Source: Thermoplasmata archaeon (GTDB lineage Archaea > Thermoplasmatota > Thermoplasmata > Thermoplasmatales > GCA-001856825). From it: 64,000 bases of DNA. The first letter of the stretch is position 1, and each line of letters opens with the position of its first letter. The translations under genes and the position numbers were made by a program. The DNA is taken from NCBI GenBank assembly GCA_021816725.1, contig JAKAXD010000001.1, positions 124,001 to 188,000 on the forward strand, written 5' to 3'. Below the pieces are notes generated by a model. That model ran no database searches, was not told the DNA's origin, and was given only the letters and a program-made list of their open reading frames with translations. Shown here piece after piece: positions 48,888 through 50,242 of the stretch.

Positions 48888-49757
48888 TCAGAATGAACCG
48901 AAATTCAGGATAATGAGGCCGAATTCCCCCTGGGAGTGGATGAACCCCTGCCTGAAGTCTATGTTCCCCAACCTGTTCTTCACCTTCTTGACGAACTGGA
49001 TCACGTCGTTTGAATCCACGTCGCTCCCTATCTCAAGTACCATGTAAATCCTCTTTATCTTCTCCCTGGGAAGCTTGTTGACTTCTTCAAAAAGGTCCCT
49101 CTCTGCTATGCTGAAGTTGACGAACGGGTAAGTGAAACTGGATACCTTCACCGGTCCGTAAAGGTTGGTAAGCATCTTAATGTCGTGAAGTGATATCCCA
49201 AGAGCAGTTGAATTATCCACCACCTTGGCGATGCTGACAACTTTCTGCCAGATGTGTTTGTAATATCTGTTGTTTATGTCAAGTAGCCTCTGATTTTTGG
49301 AATCTGAAAGAAGGTACTCAGAATCCACGAATTCCAGCATGTCAAGGTCCCCCCTGAACCGCTGAACCTTTTCCAGCTCCCTCTTCCTGTCCGCGCCTAT
49401 CGGAATGATCGGGAAGAATCCCATGAATGCGCCCGTTGACCTCAGTATCTTCAAGAGCGGCGGTATTACGGCTTCCTGAAATCGTCCCTCCGCCTGGGCG
49501 ACAATGAATACAATGTTCGCTGAAAAATTGTCAAGAATAGTTTTCCTTTCCATTCCTAGAAGATCTGACACTGCAGGACCGAACCCGCCGTCAAACTCCT
49601 TCATCTGGAGGGCGTTATCTACCTTGCATTCCATCACGCTCTCCGGATTGTAGTCTAATCCTGATGTGAGCGTGTCCCCATTGAAATATGCAGCAATTGC
49701 AATTCCCAGGTGCCCAACCCCAAGAACCCTAACGTTGCCAAGCTTGACGTCAGCCAT
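48888..49757 (-). CDS. Divergent FtsZ/tubulin-like protein
   Basis: 289 residues. Starts with a Rossmann-type GVGHLGIAIAAYF and keeps the FtsZ order: a loop KEFDGGFGPAVSDLL, then ANIVFIVAQAEGRFQEAVIPPLLKILRSTGAFMGFFPIIP, then LEFVDSEYLLSDS, and a C-terminal domain ending FGLIILNF. The tubulin signature GGGTGTG should fall at AQAEGRFQ and is absent, so GTP hydrolysis of the usual type is doubtful. It is short, lacking the usual C-terminal tail. Its start overlaps the double-RHH gene by 8 bases. RHH genes next to ftsZ are known in euryarchaea (CdrS-ftsZ2 in haloarchaea), supporting a cell-division role. Confidence 0.6.
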   Translation of the reverse strand: MADVKLGNVRVLGVGHLGIAIAAYFNGDTLTSGLDYNPESVMECKVDNALQMKEFDGGFGPAVSDLLGMERKTILDNFSANIVFIVAQAEGRFQEAVIPPLLKILRSTGAFMGFFPIIPIGADRKRELEKVQRFRGDLDMLEFVDSEYLLSDSKNQRLLDINNRYYKHIWQKVVSIAKVVDNSTALGISLHDIKMLTNLYGPVKVSSFTYPFVNFSIAERDLFEEVNKLPREKIKRIYMVLEIGSDVDSNDVIQFVKKVKNRLGNIDFRQGFIHSQGEFGLIILNFGSF

Positions 49758-50091
49758 TATTCGCAGCTCTGGATAGCTGTTCCTTCTCGAGCTCTCTAAT
49801 CTTGTCCCTAATGTAGTCCCTTACGGCTGTCCTTATCAGGTCTTCTCCGTCTACTGCCATTCCCTTGTTGACTATGACGTCTATGTTTTCCACTTCATTC
49901 CTTGGAAGTCTCAGTGTCATCTTCTTGGATGGACCAGTGCTTGTCAGCTCGTCAAGGTGGGACTCTATCGCTTCTCTTATGAACTCGGAAATATTCTTGA
50001 ACTTACCTTCTTCTATCAGCTCGTTGATCTTGTTGACGGCACCGAGCGAGAGACGTACAGTAATTCGAGACTGGTCTGGTAGATCAGACAT
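49750..50091 (-). CDS. Double ribbon-helix-helix regulator
   Basis: 113 residues with two RHH units: RITVRLSLGAVNKINELIEEGKFKNISEFIREAIESHL and MTLRLPRNEVENIDVIVNKGMAVDGEDLIRTAVRDYI. Two tandem units in one chain make a pseudo-dimer able to bind one operator half. It overlaps the FtsZ-like gene and probably controls its own operon. It may correspond to the CdrS/CdrL group of division regulators; this is inference from context. Confidence 0.8.
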   Translation of the reverse strand: MSDLPDQSRITVRLSLGAVNKINELIEEGKFKNISEFIREAIESHLDELTSTGPSKKMTLRLPRNEVENIDVIVNKGMAVDGEDLIRTAVRDYIRDKIRELEKEQLSRAANNG

Positions 50092-50242
50092 TTAACATCC
50101 TACTCCTGACTTTCTGTCAGACATATATCATTTTCTAAATATTTAACCTTTAAATTAATTCTCATTGTAATATTTATATTTATATATTTTTAAATGAGGC
50201 TAATGAGCAAAGGTATTATCGGAATAAGCAATTATAATTGCA

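Follow-up and report, generated by a model that had tools for sequence, protein, structure and literature searches.

The locus analysed here raises the question of what an FtsZ-like protein without the GTP signature is, where it came from, and what it might do behind a ribbon-helix-helix (RHH) regulator. To our knowledge, few pseudo-GTPases of the FtsZ-tubulin superfamily have been documented, and their origin and function are usually unclear. An earlier note on the window (the whole 64,000-nt stretch of DNA under analysis) had proposed that a 289-residue protein follows the plan of FtsZ with AQAEGRFQ in place of GGGTGTG, and that its gene overlaps a two-unit RHH gene, recalling the RHH-ftsZ linkage of haloarchaea. 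Here we examine that proposal by structure prediction, profile comparison, and a survey of related genomes.

The gene pair and its setting

The host belongs to a small family (f1) of acid-loving archaea related to I-plasma; its genome assembly comprises 1.31 Mb and is 79% complete. Thermoplasmatales archaeon I-plasma is a close relative, with an orthologue 96% identical to the 289-residue protein. Both open reading frames of the proposed pair are present on the minus strand: the gene for the 289-residue protein at 48888–49757, and, directly upstream, the gene for a 113-residue CdrS-like regulator with two RHH units per chain at 49750–50091. The two share 8 nt (ATGGCTGA, 49750–49757, minus strand), an overlap that suggests translational coupling. 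A NAC gene lies divergently upstream of the RHH gene, and an archaeosine synthase subunit gene lies downstream of the FtsZ-like gene in the window's genus.

The 113-residue protein matches Pfam families RHH_1 (1.4e-11) and RHH_8 (4.6e-11). Both RHH units are also matched by the CdrS model of NCBIfam (NF058555; 1.7e-14); the score, 53.5 bits, is below the cut-off of 100, and equivalog level is thus not reached. A monomer model of the double-RHH protein has a pLDDT of 69, too weak for use, as is expected because the fold normally dimerises.

The 289-residue protein has a predicted FtsZ fold

The 289-residue protein matches no family in Pfam or NCBIfam. In particular, PF00091 gave no match up to E = 1 in any of the 13 family members, and a PF00091 search of the window's genome misses the protein. 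Matches to KwaB (0.02–0.05), dynein, and CCT delta, encountered in Pfam, NCBIfam, and a single-sequence search of the PDB, were rejected as chance matches, being below cut-off and inconsistent with the fold.

An AlphaFold2 model, built from only the 13 family sequences, has a pLDDT of 89.5 and a pTM of 0.88, and is predicted to adopt the two-subdomain fold of FtsZ. The best 50 Foldseek matches of this model in the PDB are all FtsZ (E = 2e-16 to 1e-13), in favour of the earlier note's reading, and no other Rossmann-like family is found among the best structural matches. The matches span ~300 columns, that is, the full length including the C-terminal subdomain, with a TM score of about 0.7–0.78 to most of them.

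Profile comparisons point to the same family and to one group within it. A profile search of PDB sequences placed FtsZ first (E = 4e-4), with residues 7–197 aligned to FtsZ residues 18–224. Alignment of the 289-residue family with canonical FtsZs that are themselves RHH-linked, using hhalign, gave a probability of 94% and a score of 59.1; column-shuffled versions of the family gave a mean of 16 and a maximum of 27 (60 shuffles), and at most 31 in further runs. Two other canonical FtsZ groups of the class scored only 22 and 28, about the level of the shuffles. The hhalign match covers residues 1–196 only; for the C-terminal third, the FtsZ likeness comes from the structural model. Taken alone, the most distant members (g3) give no significant profile match. 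In trees, the 289-residue protein sits on a branch of some 6.5 changes per site. The data accommodate equally well a topology that joins it to RHH-linked FtsZ (p-AU 0.56) and one that joins it to other FtsZ; phylogenetic placement is uninformative because of these long branches. That an unrelated Rossmann-like protein took the slot behind the RHH gene, as the missing Pfam and NCBIfam matches of the protein and the missing Pfam matches of its relatives might suggest, is hardly credible, given a structural match that is full-length and extends through the C-terminal subdomain, a profile match specific to those FtsZs that occupy this slot in other families, and FtsZ as the top sequence family in the PDB.

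The nucleotide-binding loops have been lost

Alignment with canonical FtsZ reveals changes throughout the nucleotide pocket. Specifically, residues 87–94 (AQAEGRFQ; 49476–49499, minus strand) align with the T4 loop, with QAEGRFQ in place of GGGTGTG, and the signature is lost in all orthologues. The T1 loop remains as GVGHLGIA (49698–49721, minus strand; canonical GVGGAGCN), the T2 region is deleted, NTD in T3 has become DYN (LDYN), and the nucleotide contacts of T5 and T6 are deleted or changed. The T7 catalytic loop, canonically NxDxxD, remains as GISLHD (49182–49199, minus strand), in which the last Asp alone is kept and is invariant in the family. The protein thus lacks, in canonical form, both the tubulin signature with nucleotide loops T1, T3, T5, and T6, and the catalytic loop T7. 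Judged from its sequence, it very probably neither binds nor hydrolyses GTP.

The C-terminal tail of archaeal FtsZ carries the SepF-binding motif, GID (PMC8178401). The 289-residue protein ends right past the last core strand and has no tail, and therefore has no such motif.

The FtsZ-like gene is conserved under purifying selection

Orthologues of the 289-residue protein are present in 13 genomes of one family (f1), with identity down to 24%. The dN/dS ratio is 0.037 in comparison with I-plasma and 0.05–0.10 in other close pairs, and the gene is under strong purifying selection. The open reading frame is not a chance one, because it is kept in 13 f1 genomes with dN/dS of 0.04–0.10, and with the RHH gene directly upstream in every genome whose contig permits the check. 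The same values disfavour a relict ftsZ heading for loss, a reading that could draw on the extreme divergence within one family and on the disappearance of the RHH-linked ftsZ from the slot in family f6, but that is very improbable, since the frame is open in all 13 genomes, the fold is modelled with confidence, and the candidate operator and the gene overlap are retained.

In related families the same slot holds a canonical FtsZ

The linkage between RHH gene and ftsZ goes beyond the resemblance to haloarchaea that had been remarked on: in most other families of the class, the orthologue of the RHH gene directly abuts a canonical ftsZ. The RHH gene was matched in 139 of 151 genomes searched. 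A canonical ftsZ lies directly behind it in 17 of the 18 genomes surveyed outside f6 and f11 (7/7 in f3, f4, and f5; 10/11 elsewhere in the class), for example at loci L038–L054 and L107. In f6, an apparent pheT (identified by eye) comes after the RHH gene, and the RHH-linked ftsZ is gone from the slot. In f1, the slot holds the 289-residue protein, with the RHH gene directly upstream, in 12/12 genomes with a checkable contig. Compared with the RHH-linked canonical FtsZs (L038–L054, L107), the protein shares the slot, the specific profile match, and, in genera g2–g4 of f1 as in f4, a next gene that encodes a homologous coiled-coil protein; it differs in that GGGTGTG is kept there. We read the 289-residue protein as a degenerate descendant of the RHH-linked FtsZ.

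The coiled-coil gene of g2–g4 is a very long open frame of 1058–1342 codons behind the degenerate FtsZ (L014:2510 onward, L015, L016, and L017), and its homologue in f4 lies behind the canonical RHH-linked ftsZ; no match to it was found in the window's own genus. In f3, three of four RHH-linked FtsZ sequences (L039, L040, and L047) have an intact GGGTGTG and HISxSE in place of the T7 motif NxDxxD; loss of T7 therefore occurred there with the pocket intact, and these proteins may bind GTP without hydrolysing it.

A palindrome upstream of the RHH gene is a candidate operator

Shortly upstream of the RHH start codon lies a candidate RHH operator, TGTCTGACAGAAAGTCAGGA (50104–50123, minus strand), with a core palindrome, TGTCNGACA, at 50115–50123. 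The 20-mer occurs once in the window and in none of 100 shuffles. In f1, the palindrome is kept down to members with FtsZ-like proteins only 24% identical. Across the class, 34 of 46 loci have the strict palindrome no more than 160 nt ahead of the RHH gene, a number that rises to 41 of 46 once YGTCNGACR is admitted; the 194 kb searched contain only 36 strict copies in total, nearly all at these sites.

Two families (f12 and f19) have two copies of the palindrome ~22 bp apart, corresponding to two helical turns. In f4, the palindrome is located roughly 27 nt past a TATA-like box, near the expected transcription start, a position that suggests autorepression. The palindrome is probably the operator of the RHH gene. 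Among its copies elsewhere in the genome, the one at L170 falls on the start codons (ATG-TCA-GAC) of another FtsZ-like gene, and the others are inside open reading frames; a wider regulon is thus unsupported by linkage to other genes in this incomplete assembly.

The genome encodes canonical FtsZ elsewhere

A canonical FtsZ was sought elsewhere in the genome, as the earlier note had advised, and three were found (L001–L003), together with a short divergent FtsZ (L004), further divergent ones, and one SepF. With three canonical FtsZs and SepF in the genome, division need not depend on GTPase activity of the 289-residue protein. In a tree, all three canonical FtsZs fall outside the RHH-linked group, and by this measure no canonical RHH-linked FtsZ was found in f1.

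The survey also turned up other unusual members of the superfamily. A second cassette of double-RHH and FtsZ-like genes, adjoining an aIF2-beta-like gene, is present at L004:1011–2184 (plus strand) and also at L104 and L157 (f6); its FtsZ is short and without C-terminal subdomain, with GGGTGSGG kept in f1 and lost in f6 (GFGGNFSQ). A second degenerate FtsZ-like group, seemingly widespread in the class, occurs in other families (L145, L024, L146, L147, L150–L153, and L155); it has a core of about 260–310 residues, broken signatures (e.g. GLGGVLG and GLGGRTTS), no clear T7 motif, and an apparent C-terminal subdomain. A third degenerate group, in f1 (L018:1348–1899, L158–L163, and L170:959–1510), comprises proteins of 183–260 residues that retain GVGGAGVN or similar and have SSPAGxFSS at the T4 loop. 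One genome of f6 (G022, genus g11), a single contig of 1.83 Mb, has no FtsZ/tubulin family match; the other surveyed genomes have one to seven.

Discussion

Our reading, which we hold with a probability of about 0.6, is that the gene pair is a derived archaeal RHH-ftsZ (cdrS-ftsZ2-like) operon in which the FtsZ is now GTP-independent and likely caps or modulates canonical filaments. The closest known system is the haloarchaeal cdrS-ftsZ2 locus of Halobacterium salinarum and Haloferax volcanii, in which CdrS is a single RHH unit (55 residues in H. salinarum) that binds a symmetric motif (PMC7439475, PMC8406309). In both loci, the gene for the RHH regulator immediately precedes one of the tubulin superfamily, and the two are likely cotranscribed. 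The loci differ in three respects: the regulator here has two RHH units and haloarchaeal CdrS one; the CdrS model scores here under its family cut-off; and FtsZ2 has a tubulin/FtsZ GTPase domain, whereas the 289-residue protein is without the GTP signature. Proteins of the RHH type include ParD. In an independent study, ftsZ2 was found often to adjoin parD in archaea (PMC8178401).

Divergent members of the superfamily in new gene contexts, as here, have been described as FtsZl-1 and FtsZl-2 (Makarova and Koonin 2010, PMC2875224), and the same study mentions, in general terms, archaeal FtsZ paralogues without key motifs. FtsZl-1 has coiled-coil and helical extensions and a vWA/GTPase/OmpA context; the 289-residue protein, in contrast, consists of the FtsZ core alone and is partnered by RHH rather than vWA, with no coiled-coil or helical extension and no Pfam match to Tubulin_2. 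A literature search, which covered papers outside subscription, found no description of a signature-less FtsZ at this locus. What is new here is an apparently dead FtsZ within an otherwise conserved FtsZ operon.

Most likely, the 289-residue protein would regulate or cap canonical FtsZ filaments, in an amount that the RHH repressor sets; we infer both its binding to FtsZ and its effect on filaments. In the ancestor, a double-RHH protein bound to the TGTCNGACA palindrome at its own promoter would have controlled how much canonical FtsZ was made from the gene directly behind it. In f1, the FtsZ in the slot would have lost nucleotide binding and most of the T7 loop, keeping its two-subdomain fold under purifying selection, and three canonical FtsZs would have stayed to drive division. 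Unable to cycle GTP, the 289-residue protein would dock on canonical FtsZ subunits via its remaining polymer faces, and would thereby cap, limit, or tune canonical filaments, with RHH autoregulation fixing the stoichiometry. Since the last T7 Asp and both subdomains are retained, it is conceivable that the protein docks onto a neighbouring subunit. The logic would resemble that of chloroplast ARC3, which derives from FtsZ and negatively regulates assembly of the FtsZ ring (PMC5877594). The analogy is a working one only, between FtsZ-derived proteins that regulate rather than drive assembly; in ARC3 other domains are fused to the FtsZ part, and it is no specific relative. The fuller proposal is that f1, at an RHH-ftsZ locus conserved class-wide, made an FtsZ GTPase into a nucleotide-free subunit, held under strong purifying selection, that regulates or caps its three canonical paralogues. 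Such a prokaryotic pseudo-GTPase regulator would have arisen at the locus itself, alongside its retained transcription factor and operator. This proposal is tentative and in our estimate falls somewhat short of even odds.

A role as division accessory or scaffold, as the earlier note had suggested, is plausible in general terms. The main rival to a cap or modulator is a nucleotide-independent scaffold, one that could do without canonical FtsZ: it would assemble with itself or serve as a static layer or adaptor, for instance in shaping the cell or organising its membrane. Such a scaffold would account for a fold retained under purifying selection though GTP pocket and T7 are both lost, and these organisms have several other divergent FtsZ-like proteins, maybe with roles outside division. 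However, the RHH regulator of a division-type ftsZ still accompanies the gene, the classical longitudinal interface of FtsZ misses its key contact without nucleotide, and the protein has no repeat, membrane anchor, or tail; we therefore regard a scaffold as unlikely. Less probable still is a sensor or co-regulator, in which the degenerate FtsZ, by binding its RHH partner or by using the old pocket for a different ligand, would report division status back to transcription. Overlapping genes with probably coupled translation and a palindrome conserved class-wide would suit a partnership of this kind, but the RHH-ftsZ arrangement exists also with canonical FtsZ, so that the linkage needs no partnership, and no conserved new pocket motif was identified.

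The origin of the 289-residue protein is legible from the locus: the regulator, the candidate operator, and the neighbours are the same, and the FtsZ is intact in related families and signature-less in f1. The locus makes testable which functions of FtsZ need GTP, and how labour is divided among archaeal FtsZ paralogues. The TGTCNGACA palindrome provides a concrete candidate binding site for archaeal cell-division regulators of this kind.
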